The notes beneath the pieces were generated by a model. The model had not been told where the DNA came from. It worked only from the letters and a program-made list of their open reading frames with translations, and made no database searches. Both the position numbers and the translations under genes were made by a program. This document shows positions 16,992-26,526 of a stretch of DNA of 49,867 nucleotides, piece after piece. The number at the start of each line of letters is the position of its first letter. Position 1 is the stretch's first letter. This stretch comes from Persephonella sp. (GTDB lineage Bacteria; Aquificota; Aquificia; Aquificales; Hydrogenothermaceae): NCBI RefSeq assembly GCF_015487465.1, contig NZ_WFPS01000065.1, forward strand, positions 1 to 49,867, read 5' to 3'.

Positions 16992-17479
16992 AAAAAAACT
17001 GGCCCTTTATCATAATTACAGGATTTGGTGTGGTGGCTACTTTGATATTTGTTTATATCTTTGTTTACGGACTTGCTGTAAATACAGTCAAATCTGCCGT
17101 TTTACTGGAAAAAGCCTACCCCCACATTAAACCTCAGGAGTTTATGAACCTACTACAAAAAAAGGCAAAAAATAACAATCTGAAAATCATTAAAATAAGC
17201 TCTGAAGAAAATCTGTTTTTAGTCCAGATGGTTGATGAAAAACAGCTTGAAGAAATTCTTTCTCTTGCTCCCCAGATATCCCCTCTGTCCATTGTGAACC
17301 TTGTTATATACGACCTTGGAGATGGAACAGGAATTGTCGGGAATAATCCTTATCTGTGGGATATTGTTATAGACAATCCAAAGGTTGATGAGATGGCAGA
17401 AAATTTTTCTGACAGGCTATCTGATCTTTTAGACAGCATATACTGGGACTACAAAAAAGGAAAGGAGACCTTAAAGTAA
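16988..17479 (+). CDS. Membrane-anchored DUF302-like protein
   Basis: A 163-residue protein with one N-terminal hydrophobic helix (about 6-31) and a soluble domain. The soluble part has the pattern NNNLKIIKISSEENLFLVQM, LSIVNLVIYDLGDG and GNNPYLWDIVIDNPKVDEMA; the G-NP and strand-turn order resemble the DUF302 fold, but without a clear diagnostic motif. The partners are the preceding 46-residue membrane peptide (ATGA overlap) and the following pterin enzyme (TAATG overlap). Function unknown. Confidence 0.65.
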   Translation: MKKNWPFIIITGFGVVATLIFVYIFVYGLAVNTVKSAVLLEKAYPHIKPQEFMNLLQKKAKNNNLKIIKISSEENLFLVQMVDEKQLEEILSLAPQISPLSIVNLVIYDLGDGTGIVGNNPYLWDIVIDNPKVDEMAENFSDRLSDLLDSIYWDYKKGKETLK

Positions 17480-17826
17480 TGCCTTACATAATTAGAGTAA
17501 AAAGAGAGTTTCAGGCGGCACATTACCTGACAGATTACCACGGAAAACCTGAACCGCTTCACGGACATACATGGGAGGTTGAGCTTTTTATAAAGGCAGA
17601 AAAGTTAGATAAAGGGGGAATGGGTTTTGATTTTGTAGAAATTCACAGATTTTTAGACCAGATTCTTCCAGATTACCAATGTATGAATGAGATATACGAC
17701 TTTTCACCAAGTGCTGAAAATGTCGCCAAATATATATACCAGAAAGTAAAAGAAAAATACCCTACCCTCCAAAAAGTAGTCGTATGGGAAACAAGACATG
17801 GGGGGGCTGAATACTACGAAGAATAA
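17479..17826 (+). CDS. PTPS-III-type 6-pyruvoyltetrahydropterin synthase family protein (probable folate role)
   Basis: A 115-residue T-fold enzyme. Zinc ligands His15 (AAHYL), His28 and His30 (LHGHTW) are present. QueD and classic PTPS carry a catalytic Cys in CxxxHGH; here the residues before the HGH are E25-P26-L27, giving ExxHGH. The Glu-for-Cys change is the mark of PTPS-III proteins, which replace dihydroneopterin aldolase (FolB) in folate synthesis. I therefore prefer a folate role over queuosine. SPSAENVAKYIY is the usual PTxEN-like helix. It overlaps the preceding gene by one base. Confidence 0.8.
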   Translation: MPYIIRVKREFQAAHYLTDYHGKPEPLHGHTWEVELFIKAEKLDKGGMGFDFVEIHRFLDQILPDYQCMNEIYDFSPSAENVAKYIYQKVKEKYPTLQKVVVWETRHGGAEYYEE

Positions 17827-17829
17827 GTA

Positions 17830-17857
17830 TTGACAGTGTTTAGAATGATTATATCTT
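17830..17857 (+). promoter_or_regulatory. Promoter for the KaiC-like/HTH operon
   Basis: A perfect -35 TTGACA (17830-17835) is followed after 16 bases by TATCTT (17852-17857). It lies between the pterin gene and the KaiC-like gene, whose ribosome binding site AAAGGAGGG is at about 17878-17886. Confidence 0.65.
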
Positions 17858-17892: not shown

Positions 17893-18792
17893 TTGGCTGA
17901 GGACCCAAAATTTCATGAGGAGGGAGAAAGGGTTCATGAGTATAGAGAACCTAAAGTAGTAAAAGAAAGTATATTCACAGGAAGTAAAGCCCTTGAAAAA
18001 GCCCCAAAAATCTACGGTATCCCAACAGGAATAGAAGGACTTGATGATCTTTTTTTTGTTGTGGAATCTGAAGATGGAAAAGTAGTAAAAAAATCTCTTG
18101 GAGGTATACCTGCTTACTCTGTGTTCAACATCACAGGTGTCAACGACACAGGAAAATCCCTTATGGTTGAACAGTTTACAGTAGAGCAGGCAAGAAAAGG
18201 GCATAAAGTTGCTTTTATTACCGTAGAGTCTCCTGCGAACTTTGTTATAGCATCTATCAAGCTGAGAGCCTCGGCGATGGGATACAATTTTGATGAATTT
18301 GAAGACAACGTGATACTTATTGATGCAGCATCACACTCAACACTAAGGGAAAACCTTCCTGATCTTCTTGCAACCCTTGCCTACGCCATAAAAACTTACC
18401 ACATAAAGTTCACGGTAATAGACTCTGTTACAGGTCTGTTTGAAAACAGGGAGATGATGGCAAGGGGAGTTGTAAGAAGGCTGTTTAACTTTATGAAAAA
18501 GTGGTATCAGACGGCACTGTTTGTTTCCCAGAAAAGAAGCGGACATGAAGAGCTTACAGCAGAAGCTGCAGGAGGATACGCTGTTGGACACATTGTTGAC
18601 GGAACTATGGTCCTGGCAAAAGAGCTTATTGATTCATCATTTAAAGCAAAACTTTACAAAAAAGAGATAGGGGAGATTGTAAGACTTTTCAGGATAGATG
18701 GTTGTAGAATGTCAGGACACGACACAAGAACACACTACCTTGAGATAACAGATACAGGTCTTGTAAGAATACTGGGACCGATAGGAAAGTAA
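17893..18792 (+). CDS. KaiC-domain RecA-like ATPase, thermophile family (AF_0795/TIGR03878 type)
   Basis: A 299-residue single-domain KaiC-like ATPase. Walker A is GVNDTGKS (82-89), VAFITVESPANF follows, and the Walker B strand is KFTVIDSVTGLF. The opening GIPTGIEGLDDLF is the standard KaiC entry. Sequence and neighbour match what I recall of TIGR03878, a family scattered across archaea and bacteria but confined to thermophiles, of unknown function. The TTG start lies behind GGAGGG. The next gene, 24 bases on, is the matching near-KaiC regulatory protein. Confidence 0.85.
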   Translation: MAEDPKFHEEGERVHEYREPKVVKESIFTGSKALEKAPKIYGIPTGIEGLDDLFFVVESEDGKVVKKSLGGIPAYSVFNITGVNDTGKSLMVEQFTVEQARKGHKVAFITVESPANFVIASIKLRASAMGYNFDEFEDNVILIDAASHSTLRENLPDLLATLAYAIKTYHIKFTVIDSVTGLFENREMMARGVVRRLFNFMKKWYQTALFVSQKRSGHEELTAEAAGGYAVGHIVDGTMVLAKELIDSSFKAKLYKKEIGEIVRLFRIDGCRMSGHDTRTHYLEITDTGLVRILGPIGK

Positions 18793-18816
18793 AAACAAAA
18801 TAAGGAGGGTAAAAAA

Positions 18817-19473
18817 ATGGTAGTACTAATAACATCAAAACCTGTTAATGAGCAGGATCTTGAACATTTAGTTGCAAGGGTCTTTTTCAAAGCTATTGAT
18901 CTTCTTGGAGGACTTCACAAGCTTGCCGAGTATAGAACATTAACATGGCTTCCATCTCTCGCAAGAGCTTCATTTGCAATAGTTCTCAGGGAGGAATACC
19001 TGAAAACAGAGGAAGAGATAGCAGAGATAGTAGGATTAACAAGAAATACAGTAAGAAACATTCTTAGAGCTGATCCAAATGCTGCCATGTTTAAGATTGA
19101 ACACATGGATGAGCTTACAAAAGAGGAGAAGAAAGAGCTCAGGGTTCATACTGCCGGAGGTGTTGCAAAACTTGCTTACAAGCTTGTTAAAGAAGGTCAG
19201 GAAGCACAGACACTCCTTGAGTTTTGCAGAGAAATGTCTGCAAAAGCTGTTCAGGTCTGTGAAGCACCATGGGCTTACACAGTTCTCAAGCACAGCAAAG
19301 GTCTGAAATATCCTGTTGAAAATGCAGACACACTGAAGGAAAAACTTTCTGGAATAACAATAAAAGGTTTGTCTGGAGAAGAGGTTGCAGACGGTCTTAC
19401 CTATCCTATAAGAAATCCAGCACAGCTGTTACACGAAATAAAAGAGTTCCTGCAGATGAAAGGTGTAGAGTAA
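18817..19473 (+). CDS. KaiC-associated helix-turn-helix regulatory protein (TIGR03879-like)
   Basis: A 218-residue soluble protein. A helix-turn-helix (about 68-90, TEEEIAEIVGLTRNTVRNIL) lies in the N-terminal half, after a helical region with LTWLPSLARASFAIVLRE. The C-terminal half (about 110-218) is helical with no motif I know. It matches the protein described as the probable regulatory domain encoded beside TIGR03878 KaiC proteins. An AAGGAGGG site precedes the ATG. It may bind DNA or relay the ATPase state; the target is unknown. A strong terminator follows it. Confidence 0.78.
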   Translation: MVVLITSKPVNEQDLEHLVARVFFKAIDLLGGLHKLAEYRTLTWLPSLARASFAIVLREEYLKTEEEIAEIVGLTRNTVRNILRADPNAAMFKIEHMDELTKEEKKELRVHTAGGVAKLAYKLVKEGQEAQTLLEFCREMSAKAVQVCEAPWAYTVLKHSKGLKYPVENADTLKEKLSGITIKGLSGEEVADGLTYPIRNPAQLLHEIKEFLQMKGVE

Positions 19474-19479
19474 AGAAGG

Positions 19480-19500
19480 CGGGCTTTAAGCCCGTTTTTT
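19480..19500 (+). terminator. Intrinsic terminator after the KaiC/HTH operon
   Basis: The near-palindrome cgggct-tta-agcccg (19480-19494) is followed by six T's (19495-19500). It separates the KaiC/HTH pair from reverse gyrase, which starts 24 bases later, so rgy must use readthrough or a promoter in this short gap. Confidence 0.9.
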
Positions 19501-19523
19501 ATTTTTGGAAACAGGGGCGTAAA

Positions 19524-22500
19524 ATGGAAAAAAAGGTTATACCTATTATTTATAAAGACATGTGTCCAAACTGCGGAGGGGATATAAGCTCTGAAAGACT
19601 CTTTAAAGGTCTTGTATGTGAAAACTGTCTTCCTGAAGAAGTTCCAAGGGAAGATCTGTGCGATTTTTTAGGATACGGGAAATTCCTTGATGTATGCCAG
19701 CTGTGGAGCAAGGTAAAGGACTTTAAAGGGTTTTTCAGGGAGATCATTAAAAATGATTTATGGTCTATTCAGGAAACATGGGCAACAAGATTTTTCCTCA
19801 ATATATCCTACGCACTTCTTGCCCCTACAGGAATAGGAAAGACAACATTCGGGCTTGTTTTATCAAAGTATCTTAAAGATAAAGAAAACAAAAAAGCTTA
19901 TCTTATATTTCCAACACAGATGCTTGTTAATCAGGCACACGAGAGGCTCGTATCCTTTGGAGTTCCTGAGGAAGACATACTTGCATATACATCAAAATTT
20001 GCAAAAACCAAGAAAAAACAGGAAGAGTTAAAAGAAAGAATAAAAAATAACGATTTTAAAATTCTTCTGACTACAACAATGTTTCTGTATAAAAACATAG
20101 ACATAATACCAAAGGGAGAGTACGGTCTTGTTTTTGTTGATGATGTTGACAGCGTTCTGAAAACAGCAAAAAATATAGACAAAGTGCTTATGCTTTTAGG
20201 CTTTTCTCAGGAGGATATAGAATACACCCTTAAGTTTATCACCTTTAAGCAGAATTTATTTAAAAAAGGACAGCCTACAGAGGAAGATTTTGAACTTCTA
20301 CAGCACTGGCAGTCAAAAGTCCAGAAAATCACAGAAAAAAGAAAAGGTGTCCTGATAGTTTCATCTGCCACATCAAACCCCAGATCAAAAAGGGTAAACC
20401 TGTTTAGAGAGCTTTTAGGATTTGAGGTTGGAAGACCGTCCCTAACGCTGAGAAATATTGATGATATATACGAAAAACCTGAAGATGTATGGAAAAAAAG
20501 CGTTGATGTAATAAAAAAATTAGGAAAAGGGGGACTTGCATTCTTATCCTCTTCAGAAACCAGAGAAACACTGGAAAAGTATGTGGAATTTCTGAAACAA
20601 AACGGTATAACAGCTGTTTCTTATGAAGAGCTTATGGACAGAATAGATGAATACAGAGAAGGAAAAATTCAGGTTGCTGTAGGTTTTGCAAGCTATAGAA
20701 ACCCACTTGCAAGGGGAGTAGACCTTCCAGATGTTATCAGATACGCCGTTTTTGTAGGCGTTCCGAAACTACAGTTTAATATAAGGTTTGAGGAGGAGTT
20801 TATACATCTATATTACTTTATGCTTTCTCTTACACCATTTCTTGCAAGAAAAAAGCTCCTTGATCCTATCCAGATAAAACAGCTTTACGATTACATAAAC
20901 TACCTGAAGATATACGCTTTTATCCCGGCTGAAAAGCTTGAACCTGAAAAGCTTGAAAAAATGAGAAAGATACAGCTATATGTGAAAAGCCTTATAGAAA
21001 AGCCAGAAGTGTTCTCAGCTGTCCAGCAGTCTCCTGAGATAACTCTGAGAAAGGAAGGGGATACATTCATACTGACAACGGCAGATGTTACAGGGTATAT
21101 ACAGGCATCAGGAAGAACATCAAGACTTTATGCAGGAGGTTTAACAAAAGGTCTTGCATACCTCCTTGTTGATGATGAGAAAGCATTTTACTCCTTGCAA
21201 AAGAAAGTAAGATGGTTCAGTGAAGACATACAATTTAAGCCTGTTGATCAGGTTAACCTTGATGATATTCTGAAAAAGGTTGATCAGGACAGGGAAAAGG
21301 TTAAAAAAGTTCTGTCAGGAGAGTTTATAAAGGAAGAAAGACAGTCATTTTTGACAACAGTTGTTATTGTTGAGTCCCCAAATAAAGCCAGAACAATAGC
21401 AAACTTTTTTGGAAAGCCTCTTAGAAGAAAGCTGAAAAATCTTGATGCTTACGAGATAGCCATCGGGGAAAGATTTTTAACGATAGTTGCAAGTAAAGGG
21501 CATGTATATGATCTGAATAAAGAGGAGTATTACTTTGGTGTAAAGAAAAATGGTGATCTTGTTCCTATATTTGAACCGATAGACCAGTCTAAAGACCAGA
21601 TAATAAACAGCATTAGAGAGCTTGATCTTGAGGTAAACGAGATATTTATAGCAACAGATCCTGATACTGAAGGGGAAAAAATAAGCTACGACCTTTATCT
21701 TAACTCCCTTCCTTACAACTACAACATAAAAAGGGCAGAGTTCCATGAGGTAACAAAAAGGGCATTTTTAGAAGCTCTGCAAAACTACAGGGATTTTGAT
21801 GTAAATCTGGTAAAGGCACAGCTTGTAAGAAGAATAGCAGACAGATGGATAGGATTTACCATATCCCAGTATATACAGCAGAAACTCCACAGACACTGGC
21901 TTTCGGCAGGAAGAGTTCAAACACCTGTTTTAGAGTGGATCATTGAGAGAACAGATCAGGCAAAGCAGAAGATAGCGATAATCAGGGTGAATATAAATGG
22001 TTATCCTTTTGAGTTTCAGTTTGAGGATAGGAAGAAGGCAAAATGGTTTTACGACTATCTTGAGTTTATTCTGATAAAGGAGTTAGAAAAGAAAGAGGAG
22101 GATCTTTATGTAAAACCATTCACAACAGATATTATGCTTTCTGAAGCAGCAAGGGAGCTGAGATTTTCTCCTCAGGAAACGATGCAGCTTGCACAGGATC
22201 TGTTTGAAGCAGGATTGATAACATACCACAGAACAGACAGCATAAGGGTTTCAGAAGCAGGGGTTTATGTTGCAAAAGAGTACATAACAGAAAATTTTGG
22301 AGAGGAATATTTTAAACCAAGAACATTCTCAGCTGCAGGGGGAGCACACGAATGTATAAGACCAACAAGACCTATGGACGCAGATGACCTCAGATCAATG
22401 ATATACACGATGAACCTACAGGGAATAACAAACAGACATATAAAGCTGTATGATCTGATATTCAGAAGGTTTATAGCATCACAGATGAGGGAAACGGTCG

Positions 22501-23027
22501 TTGAGAAAACAACATACCATCTCAAAGCGTTTGATCAGGAGCTTCAGGAAGATGTTTTAACAAGGATAGTTCAGCATGGATACGATCTGATACTTCCTGT
22601 TAAGATTTACTCAATACCTGAAGGAAAAGTTGATGTAAAAGATAAAAAATCATACCACCTTAAGCCGAAAGTTCCTTACTATACATTTGCCACTATTGTG
22701 CAAGAGATGAAAGAAAAAGGTATAGGAAGACCTTCCACCTATGCTGTAACAGTTCAGAAACTTTTAGACAGACATTACATAATTGAAAGGAGAGGGTATT
22801 TGTTCCCTACAAAGCTTGGAAGAACAGTAGTCTCTCTTATCAAAAAAAGAGAGGATATATATAGATTTGTTAATGAGAACTACACAAAAGAGCTTGAAGA
22901 GATTATGGACAGGGTTGAAAGGGGAGAGGCAGATTACCAGAAAGAGATTGAAAAACTGTTTGAAGAGCTGAAAAACAGAAAGCTGTTCTTTAAGGTTGAG
23001 ATAGGAAAATACGCTTACGAGGAGTAA
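19524..23027 (+). CDS. rgy: Reverse gyrase
   Basis: A 1167-residue fusion of an SF2 helicase and a type IA topoisomerase that introduces positive supercoils at the expense of ATP. It is the hallmark protein of hyperthermophiles. An N-terminal zinc finger has Cys14, Cys17, Cys32 and Cys35. Walker A is APTGIGKT (100-107), and the characteristic DDVD box is at 206-209. The TOPRIM domain has VIVESPNKARTI (Glu617) and DPDTEGE (Asp712, Asp714). The active-site tyrosine is Tyr901 in LITYHRTDS. I see no second Cys4 finger in the topoisomerase half. Length and motif order are complete. It converges on gatB with only five bases between stops. Confidence 0.97.
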   Translation: MEKKVIPIIYKDMCPNCGGDISSERLFKGLVCENCLPEEVPREDLCDFLGYGKFLDVCQLWSKVKDFKGFFREIIKNDLWSIQETWATRFFLNISYALLAPTGIGKTTFGLVLSKYLKDKENKKAYLIFPTQMLVNQAHERLVSFGVPEEDILAYTSKFAKTKKKQEELKERIKNNDFKILLTTTMFLYKNIDIIPKGEYGLVFVDDVDSVLKTAKNIDKVLMLLGFSQEDIEYTLKFITFKQNLFKKGQPTEEDFELLQHWQSKVQKITEKRKGVLIVSSATSNPRSKRVNLFRELLGFEVGRPSLTLRNIDDIYEKPEDVWKKSVDVIKKLGKGGLAFLSSSETRETLEKYVEFLKQNGITAVSYEELMDRIDEYREGKIQVAVGFASYRNPLARGVDLPDVIRYAVFVGVPKLQFNIRFEEEFIHLYYFMLSLTPFLARKKLLDPIQIKQLYDYINYLKIYAFIPAEKLEPEKLEKMRKIQLYVKSLIEKPEVFSAVQQSPEITLRKEGDTFILTTADVTGYIQASGRTSRLYAGGLTKGLAYLLVDDEKAFYSLQKKVRWFSEDIQFKPVDQVNLDDILKKVDQDREKVKKVLSGEFIKEERQSFLTTVVIVESPNKARTIANFFGKPLRRKLKNLDAYEIAIGERFLTIVASKGHVYDLNKEEYYFGVKKNGDLVPIFEPIDQSKDQIINSIRELDLEVNEIFIATDPDTEGEKISYDLYLNSLPYNYNIKRAEFHEVTKRAFLEALQNYRDFDVNLVKAQLVRRIADRWIGFTISQYIQQKLHRHWLSAGRVQTPVLEWIIERTDQAKQKIAIIRVNINGYPFEFQFEDRKKAKWFYDYLEFILIKELEKKEEDLYVKPFTTDIMLSEAARELRFSPQETMQLAQDLFEAGLITYHRTDSIRVSEAGVYVAKEYITENFGEEYFKPRTFSAAGGAHECIRPTRPMDADDLRSMIYTMNLQGITNRHIKLYDLIFRRFIASQMRETVVEKTTYHLKAFDQELQEDVLTRIVQHGYDLILPVKIYSIPEGKVDVKDKKSYHLKPKVPYYTFATIVQEMKEKGIGRPSTYAVTVQKLLDRHYIIERRGYLFPTKLGRTVVSLIKKREDIYRFVNENYTKELEEIMDRVERGEADYQKEIEKLFEELKNRKLFFKVEIGKYAYEE

Positions 23028-25840: not shown

Positions 25841-26203
25841 ATGAACGTTAGACTAAAGTTAAAAGAACAGATTTTAAATGAGATATTTAAGGTTTTAGAC
25901 AGAGAAAAGGTTTGTGTTGTGTTGTTTGGTTCTTCAGCGTTAGATAAAGGCTCCCCCTATTCTGATATTGATATTGGATTATTTTATACAGAAGGAATAG
26001 ATGATGAAACATTTTTAAATCTAAAAAAAAACTTAAATTACTGGGTTGACACAGCAAGAATTATTGACCTGGTAGATTTTCAGAGAGTAGATCTGGATTT
26101 TTTAGAGTTTGCTTTAAAAGGAGCTGTCATATGGCATGTGGGGAAAGAATTCTTAAAAAACTTACTCAAACAGAAAAAGCCTTTAGAAAACTTAAAGAGA
26201 TAG
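25841..26203 (+). CDS. MNT-domain nucleotidyltransferase (MntA-like antitoxin)
   Basis: A 120-residue minimal nucleotidyltransferase. The active-site motif is GS-x10-DxD, with Gly30-Ser31 and Asp42/Asp44 in YSDIDIG, exactly the spacing of MntA-type enzymes. A third acidic region (DTARIIDLVDF) follows. Such proteins modify or neutralise a HEPN partner, which is encoded next with a 73-base overlap. It starts two bases after ahcY, so the pair has been placed inside a metabolic operon. Confidence 0.85.
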   Translation: MNVRLKLKEQILNEIFKVLDREKVCVVLFGSSALDKGSPYSDIDIGLFYTEGIDDETFLNLKKNLNYWVDTARIIDLVDFQRVDLDFLEFALKGAVIWHVGKEFLKNLLKQKKPLENLKR

Positions 26204-26526
26204 AAAATTTGACAGATGAACTTAAAGATGAAATTTTGTATGAGGTTTCGGCGAAAAGATTTGAGTATACATTCGAAAGTTTATGGAAAACTTTAAAGGT
26301 TTTTTTAGAAGAAGAAAAAGGAATAATATCCAACTCACCAATGGATTGCTTTAAGCAGTTTTACAAAACTATGAATTTAGACGAAAAGTTTGAGGACAAA
26401 ATTCTAAAATCGGTTAGATTTTGTGACGAAATTGTGCATATTCATGACTACGAAACTGCAGAATTTATATATAAAAACCCTGAAAACAATGTTTTCCCTA
26501 ATTTGAAGAAACAGTTGTTAAGATAA
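26131..26526 (+). CDS. HEPN-domain partner protein (HI0074/HepT-like)
   Basis: A 131-residue helical protein of the nucleotidyltransferase substrate-binding type, the presumed toxin or RNA-binding half of the MNT/HEPN pair. AAAAGGAG precedes the ATG at 26131, inside the MNT gene. The HEPN signature region reads R96-FCDEIV-H103-I-H105-D-Y107. HepT toxins use Rx4HxY; taking HDY as HxY, the arginine position is Glu100, while Arg96 and His103 give an Rx6H alternative. The RNase motif is therefore unusual and activity is uncertain. Confidence 0.8.
   Translation: MACGERILKKLTQTEKAFRKLKEIENLTDELKDEILYEVSAKRFEYTFESLWKTLKVFLEEEKGIISNSPMDCFKQFYKTMNLDEKFEDKILKSVRFCDEIVHIHDYETAEFIYKNPENNVFPNLKKQLLR

Follow-up and report, generated by a model that had tools for sequence, protein, structure and literature searches.

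A KaiC-like ATPase and a helix-turn-helix protein recurrently encoded next to reverse gyrase in bacteria and archaea

Results and Discussion

The KaiC2-HTH-rgy Locus

The window, i.e., the whole analysed stretch of 49,867 nt from Persephonella sp., carries three intact ORFs in the order KaiC2, HTH, and rgy at positions 17893-23027 (Table 1). All three products exceed the NCBIfam cut-offs of their families, with 459.4 bits (cut-off 232.2; positions 1-258 of the 259 profile positions covered) for KaiC2 and TIGR03878, 126.2 bits (cut-off 65.1) for the HTH protein and TIGR03879, and 1251.9 bits (cut-off 471.7) for the rgy product and TIGR01054. The latter combines the zf_Rg, DEAD, Toprim, and Topoisom_bac domains in one chain; it is a reverse gyrase by family criteria, with positive supercoiling as its predicted activity. 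A first-pass annotation had described a KaiC-like gene with an adjoining HTH partner, followed by reverse gyrase after one terminator, and this description is borne out: the HTH gene starts 24 nt behind the KaiC2 stop codon, and a single hairpin precedes rgy.

The PTPS/QueD-like gene upstream of KaiC2 is also present in the window's genus and in G080, and is absent from the rgy module outside of these. Farther downstream, at 25841-26526, overlapping MNT-type nucleotidyltransferase and HI0074/HepT-like genes resemble a type VII toxin-antitoxin pair; both score below the NCBIfam equivalog cut-offs.

Table 1. Coordinates of the genes and putative signals at the locus, given as positions of the window.
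Feature	Position	Strand	Remarks
PTPS/QueD-like gene, 5' of KaiC2	17479-17826	+	QueD model score below cut-off
Sigma-70-like promoter candidate for KaiC-HTH	17830-17857	+	TTGACA, 16 nt, TATCTT
KaiC2 ORF, 299 aa	17893-18792	+	TTG start after AAAGGAGGG; TIGR03878 (thermo_KaiC_2)
HTH partner ORF, 218 aa	18817-19473	+	TIGR03879 (near_KaiC_dom)
Intrinsic terminator-like hairpin with T tail	19474-19506	+	HTH/rgy gap; hairpin 19474-19500
rgy (reverse gyrase) ORF, 1167 aa	19524-23027	+	intact; TIGR01054

Features of the KaiC2 and HTH Proteins

KaiC2 is a single-domain ATPase of the KaiC/RecA fold with the Walker A motif GVNDTGKS and the Walker B motif VIDS. The Walker motifs are kept and the stretches SQKRS and RIDGCR are invariant in the KaiC2 proteins of archaea and bacteria, which are 49-55% identical to the window protein in the organisms compared. 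The HTH protein shares 38-45% identity with its archaeal relatives, including an invariant LTWLPSLA core and the helix-turn-helix. Its TIGR03879 domain comprises residues 28-127 and is followed by a C-terminal portion of approximately 85 aa; the C-terminal half is missing in Thermomicrobium roseum and in L109. Weak matches of the HTH core were obtained to the HTH_23, sigma-70 region 4, and ParB HTH models. The structure model of the HTH protein is all-helical (pLDDT 81.9) and gave no Foldseek match against the PDB at E<=0.001, the best Z being 4.8. In case of KaiC2, the structure model is poor (pLDDT 62.9).

Promoter and Terminator Signals

The site at 17830-17857, named as a possible binding site in the first-pass annotation, is the best promoter-like candidate upstream of KaiC2. 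Its TTGACA element is kept upstream of KaiC in the relatives L026, L030, L031, L151, and L037; in the region as a whole, promoter-like sites are fewer than in shuffled sequences (7 versus 13.2). The terminator downstream of the HTH gene recurs with altered stem bases in L026, L030, L031, and L151, the members of the genus examined at this position, and is also situated 3' of the HTH gene in G080, where rgy is located approximately 60 kb off. In the window, the rgy start codon lies approximately 17 nt past the T run, and thus the gap offers no room for a full promoter. Due to this location just past the terminator, rgy is probably transcribed either by read-through from KaiC-HTH or from a promoter located within the HTH gene.

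Adjacency of the Pair and rgy in the Aquificota

Among 136 Aquificota genomes, KaiC2, HTH, and rgy were detected above the cut-offs in 114, 116, and 123, respectively. For the 106 genomes with both KaiC and HTH, the two genes are at most 5 kb apart in 42, farther apart on the same contig in 12, and on separate contigs in 52. The distance between KaiC and rgy is at most 5 kb in 12 of the 108 genomes that have both. Eleven of these belong to the window's genus and show the order KaiC, HTH, rgy throughout, and the twelfth is G078 of another genus, in which rgy is divergent. In G085, a further member of the window's genus, another gene follows HTH. Since 11 of the 12 cases fall into one genus, the adjacency looked local within the Aquificota alone; the local curiosity expected from this count was overturned by the archaeal loci. 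The genus and family names used here for the Aquificota relatives (Hydrogenothermaceae-, Aquifex-, and Sulfurihydrogenibium-like) are presumed assignments. In G124 and G125, both of one genus in family f5, KaiC2 and rgy are 16 kb apart, which is closer than in other f5 genera with both genes on one contig.

Adjacency outside the Aquificota

The helicase half of reverse gyrase was compared to named genomes, and the best 80 of 429 relatives, ranked by similarity to an Archaeoglobus sequence and mostly archaeal, were considered. The pair is located directly upstream of rgy on the same strand, in the order KaiC, HTH, rgy, at 19 of these best 80 loci, and three more of them show HTH and rgy in this order up to the contig end. 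Operon loci occur predominantly in the Thermoplasmatota; single ones are labelled Aenigmatarchaeota, Bathyarchaeota, and Euryarchaeota, and the remainder stem from unnamed archaea and from one record labelled as a bacterium. The HTH/rgy junctions range from overlaps of 1-11 nt (8 nt in the group of L065, L072, L079, and L087, 11 nt in L109) to gaps of approximately 37 nt, with most other junctions 1 to approximately 37 nt apart. The operon is also found in the single-contig genomes G218 and G251 and is thus not merely a binning artefact. G559 carries it too, G564 has the order rgy, KaiC, HTH, and the pair is separated from rgy by 2.6 kb in G452 and G544 and by 6.3 kb in G442. At L106 (6285-8358), a second KaiC-family gene is situated near the operon on the opposite strand.

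KaiC, HTH, and rgy thus follow one another on one strand in unrelated lineages. A restriction to one or two close relatives, which would have refuted the idea of the first-pass annotation, was not observed, since the adjacency extends over the Thermoplasmatota, MAGs labelled Aenigmatarchaeota and Bathyarchaeota, a genome that we take to be Archaeoglobus-like, and, twice, the Aquificota. In a whole-genome search, KaiC2 was present in 39 of 50 genomes picked from the best 80 of 429 rgy loci, a figure that runs high due to a sample built around all 19 operon loci. Considering 60 hand-chosen KaiC-HTH loci, many of them fetched via rgy, the commonest neighbour family is rgy with 23 loci, the next best reaches 4, and no gene family other than rgy recurs beside the pair.

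Neighbouring of rgy with the TIGR03878/TIGR03879 genes was also counted against chance, as had been proposed with the first-pass annotation. KaiC2 and rgy are at most 10 kb apart in 5 of 20 genomes at an expectation of 1.2% per genome (binomial p ~3e-6), in a hand-chosen sample with both genes on a near-whole-chromosome contig, one genome per genus in the Aquificota, single species or lineages in the archaea, and some lengths given as rounded genome sizes. A KS test on all KaiC2/rgy distances in this set gave p = 0.06, so that the excess lies with the close pairs.

Independent Origins of the Adjacency

All rgy trees and the second of the KaiC trees were built by a quick method. The rgy type of the window clusters in the rgy tree with other Hydrogenothermaceae-type genes, which are located elsewhere in their genomes. 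Because rgy is situated beside a metK-like gene in G077 and G080, its position behind KaiC-HTH in the window's genus looks derived. The rgy gene of G078, divergent to an Aquificota KaiC-HTH pair, groups with one of two Aquifex-like copies. In G559, an archaeal KaiC-HTH pair is joined to an rgy gene of the Hydrogenothermaceae type, i.e., of bacterial type, with the proviso that its long-branched KaiC row calls for care in tree placement. In case of the archaeal operons, the KaiC and rgy trees give largely the same sub-groups. The adjacency had more than one origin, with gene order, orientation, and rgy lineage differing between cases.

Several further features were observed at the rgy loci. The genes 3' of rgy in G078 (L034:7774-14339) look like ribonucleotide reductase and cobalamin adenosyltransferase genes, and the archaeal loci L099 and L107 have homologues of both just past rgy as well. 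The rgy frames of L155, G475, and G140 are overlong (1571-1688 aa), as an intein or a fusion would give. In a Sulfurihydrogenibium-like genome (G098:C44:1469-3427), rgy contains an in-frame TGA.

Co-Occurrence and Joint Loss

In the Thermoplasmatota (243 genomes), 13 genomes have both KaiC2 and rgy, none has KaiC2 only, one has rgy only, and 229 have neither. In the rgy-only genome, rgy begins at a contig edge; in 12 of the 13 genomes with both, the two genes are direct neighbours on the same contig. For the phylum of G139 (246 genomes) the corresponding numbers are 31, 2, 11, and 202, and for a third archaeal phylum, that of G185 (29 genomes), 3, 1, 18, and 7. No association between KaiC2 and rgy was observed in the phylum of G185, where 18 of the 21 rgy genomes are devoid of KaiC2. 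Genomes with KaiC2 also have rgy in 13 of 13, 31 of 33, and 3 of 4 cases, respectively. Of the genomes with rgy or KaiC2, 10 in the Thermoplasmatota and 14 in the phylum of G139 had already been reached via rgy; omitting genomes reached in this way leaves 3 with both, none with KaiC2 only, and one with rgy only in the former, and 20, 2, and 8 in the latter. These archaeal counts come without completeness figures, and the Fisher tests of co-occurrence ignore relatedness.

Among the 65 Aquificota genomes with a completeness of >=98%, 61 have both genes, one has KaiC2 only, one has rgy only, and two have neither. In the KaiC2-only genome, G075, rgy is present in pieces over two contigs. Aquificota with rgy and without KaiC2 include G113, G044, and G042. 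Within 14 named controls, KaiC2 occurs in Thermus composti alone, which has rgy, and Thermotoga maritima, Methanocaldococcus jannaschii, and Sulfolobus acidocaldarius have rgy and lack KaiC2. KaiC2 without detected rgy was found in G498, G545, and G677. The megaplasmid of Thermomicrobium roseum carries KaiC-HTH and no rgy, a statement covering the plasmid record. It was the only plasmid record with KaiC and HTH, 18 Thermus plasmid records contain rgy, and two scans of viral contigs gave no matches. The dependence is thus one-sided: KaiC2 rarely occurs without rgy, and rgy often occurs without KaiC2. The association of the pair is with lineages that carry rgy; T. roseum is one of the exceptions.

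Two complete genomes of one genus, G030 and G033, differ in this respect, G030 keeping KaiC, HTH, and rgy. In G033, a deletion of approximately 3 kb has left the two ends of the rgy gene, and its flanks share 90% identity with those of G030. At a second locus, the region from KaiC to HTH (approximately 3.3 kb in G030) is deleted except for the first 130 bases of KaiC, and the flanks adjacent to this break are 89-93% identical to G030. The two loci are 1.08 Mb apart in the coordinates of G030, or approximately 0.47 Mb the short way round. Since the deletions are separate and affect unlinked loci, the three genes were lost in at least two events. G079 (99% complete) also lacks KaiC2, HTH, and rgy; as the genes adjoin in its congener G078, one deletion or gap could explain this absence. 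In G030 (L043:7530-9350), approximately 1.8 kb separate KaiC from HTH, which are adjacent in the relatives G032 and G034, and a short sequence preceding HTH has matches at two other places in G033. An insertion element is perhaps involved.

A Putative Accessory Pair of Reverse Gyrase

KaiC2 and HTH form a gene couple in archaea and bacteria that repeatedly builds an operon with rgy and largely shares its retention or loss, even at unlinked loci. The recurrent trio and its joint retention and loss suggest that the two proteins are dedicated helpers of reverse gyrase. On the basis of gene content and arrangement, we consider an accessory pair dedicated to reverse gyrase the probable explanation, by a modest degree of confidence. 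The KaiC2 ATPase may assemble with the HTH protein on DNA in an ATP-dependent manner, and the complex would control where or when reverse gyrase acts by recruitment, gating, or clearing, possibly where DNA is strained or melted in the heat. In archaea, the tight and often overlapping junctions would ensure a joint supply of the three proteins. Many rgy genomes without KaiC2, a few KaiC2 genomes without rgy, and the separation of KaiC and HTH themselves in 64 of 106 Aquificota genomes speak against such a role. It is tempting to speculate, and more tentatively so, on a three-protein machine for positive supercoiling in which the KaiC-type ATPase and the HTH protein would gate or place reverse gyrase on DNA in Aquificota, Thermoplasmatota, Archaeoglobi-type organisms, and others. 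In lineages devoid of KaiC2, reverse gyrase would rely on a different partner or do without one.

A serious rival is transcriptional control, in which the HTH protein would repress or activate rgy, and perhaps further heat genes, with KaiC2 as ATP-dependent switch; we regard it as rather unlikely. It is consistent with the weak matches of the HTH core to DNA-binding models and with the terminator between HTH and rgy in the window, which makes a control point possible. Furthermore, according to PMC10746257, PF1931 (KaiC-domain) and PF1932 (predicted regulator) of Pyrococcus furiosus are targets with a Phr motif and are up in heat shock; the two may or may not belong to the KaiC2 and HTH families. 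The first-pass annotation had proposed a heat-linked unit of the three genes, which is backed by the repeated adjacency and by co-occurrence in two of three archaeal phyla, and within it a KaiC switch acting through the HTH protein on rgy or on supercoiling, for which no shared upstream motif was found. For 26 pairs, the 150 bp preceding KaiC were compared to those preceding rgy; the best match averaged 12.08 of 16 for own pairs and 12.06 for shuffled ones, in a crude comparison of ungapped 16-mers upstream of first-possible ORF starts. By this crude comparison, a shared operator of KaiC and rgy was rejected, since own-pair scores equal those of the shuffles. In addition, the degree of HTH identity to archaea, which use a different promoter system, is more than would be expected of a repressor reading a local operator. 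Due to the gene overlaps, the conservation of HTH across two transcription systems, and the lack of a shared upstream motif, we favour an accessory function exerted on the protein level.

The genes might also co-occur simply because all are useful in the heat, with adjacency resulting from compact genomes and gene transfer. The missing association in the phylum of G185, the KaiC-HTH pairs without detected rgy, and the KS result agree with such a shared niche, which nevertheless appears improbable considering the operon with overlapping genes, the proximity within 10 kb in a quarter of the 20 genomes, and an adjacency with several origins, involving different rgy lineages and orientations and no other recurrent neighbour of the pair. 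A cassette easing entry into hot habitats, kept by selection for joint transfer and not for joint action, would fit the operon under several phylum labels and the like grouping of operon rows in the KaiC and rgy trees, but is very improbable, as pair and rgy are mostly at separate loci in the Aquificota and still largely retained, and as the archaeal pair of G559 is joined to an rgy gene of bacterial type.

Among the genes that mark hyperthermophiles, reverse gyrase is the best known. To our knowledge, no conserved gene partner of it has been established. A gene pair that joins, follows, and leaves with rgy would offer a genetic handle on how the cell directs and restrains reverse gyrase, and would also give a function to the two families. 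No paper joining KaiC-HTH to reverse gyrase in substance was found in the literature searched, in which the single paper mentioning both KaiC and reverse gyrase deals with heat shock in P. furiosus; Makarova et al. (2017) may already describe the family.

Comparison to Known Systems

The two families and the KaiC-HTH neighbourhood are already known and modelled in NCBIfam. The window proteins score far above both cut-offs of TIGR03878 and TIGR03879, and the name near_KaiC_dom already marks the neighbourhood of KaiC; the lines of these models are silent on reverse gyrase, and the link to rgy is the addition of the present analysis. With circadian KaiC, KaiC2 shares the ATPase superfamily. It differs in having one domain in 299 aa instead of tandem domains, and reaches 32.8 bits with the circ_KaiC model (cut-off 546.25).

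The single-domain RecA/KaiC fold is also found in SSO2452 (2w0m), which we take to be an archaeal RadA paralog, and in the UPF0273 protein PH0284 (2dr3), both distant sequence matches of KaiC2 (E 1.6e-9 and 4.2e-10, respectively). Their families are separate from KaiC2, since KaiC2 reaches 62 bits with the TIGR03877 model (cut-off 307). KaiC-like ATPases are described as hubs of signal transduction in archaea (Makarova et al. 2017, mBio, as cited in PMC5847659). Like these, KaiC2-HTH combines an ATPase of the KaiC superfamily with a partner of DNA-binding type; unlike these, it is tied in presence, gene order, and loss to one enzyme, reverse gyrase.
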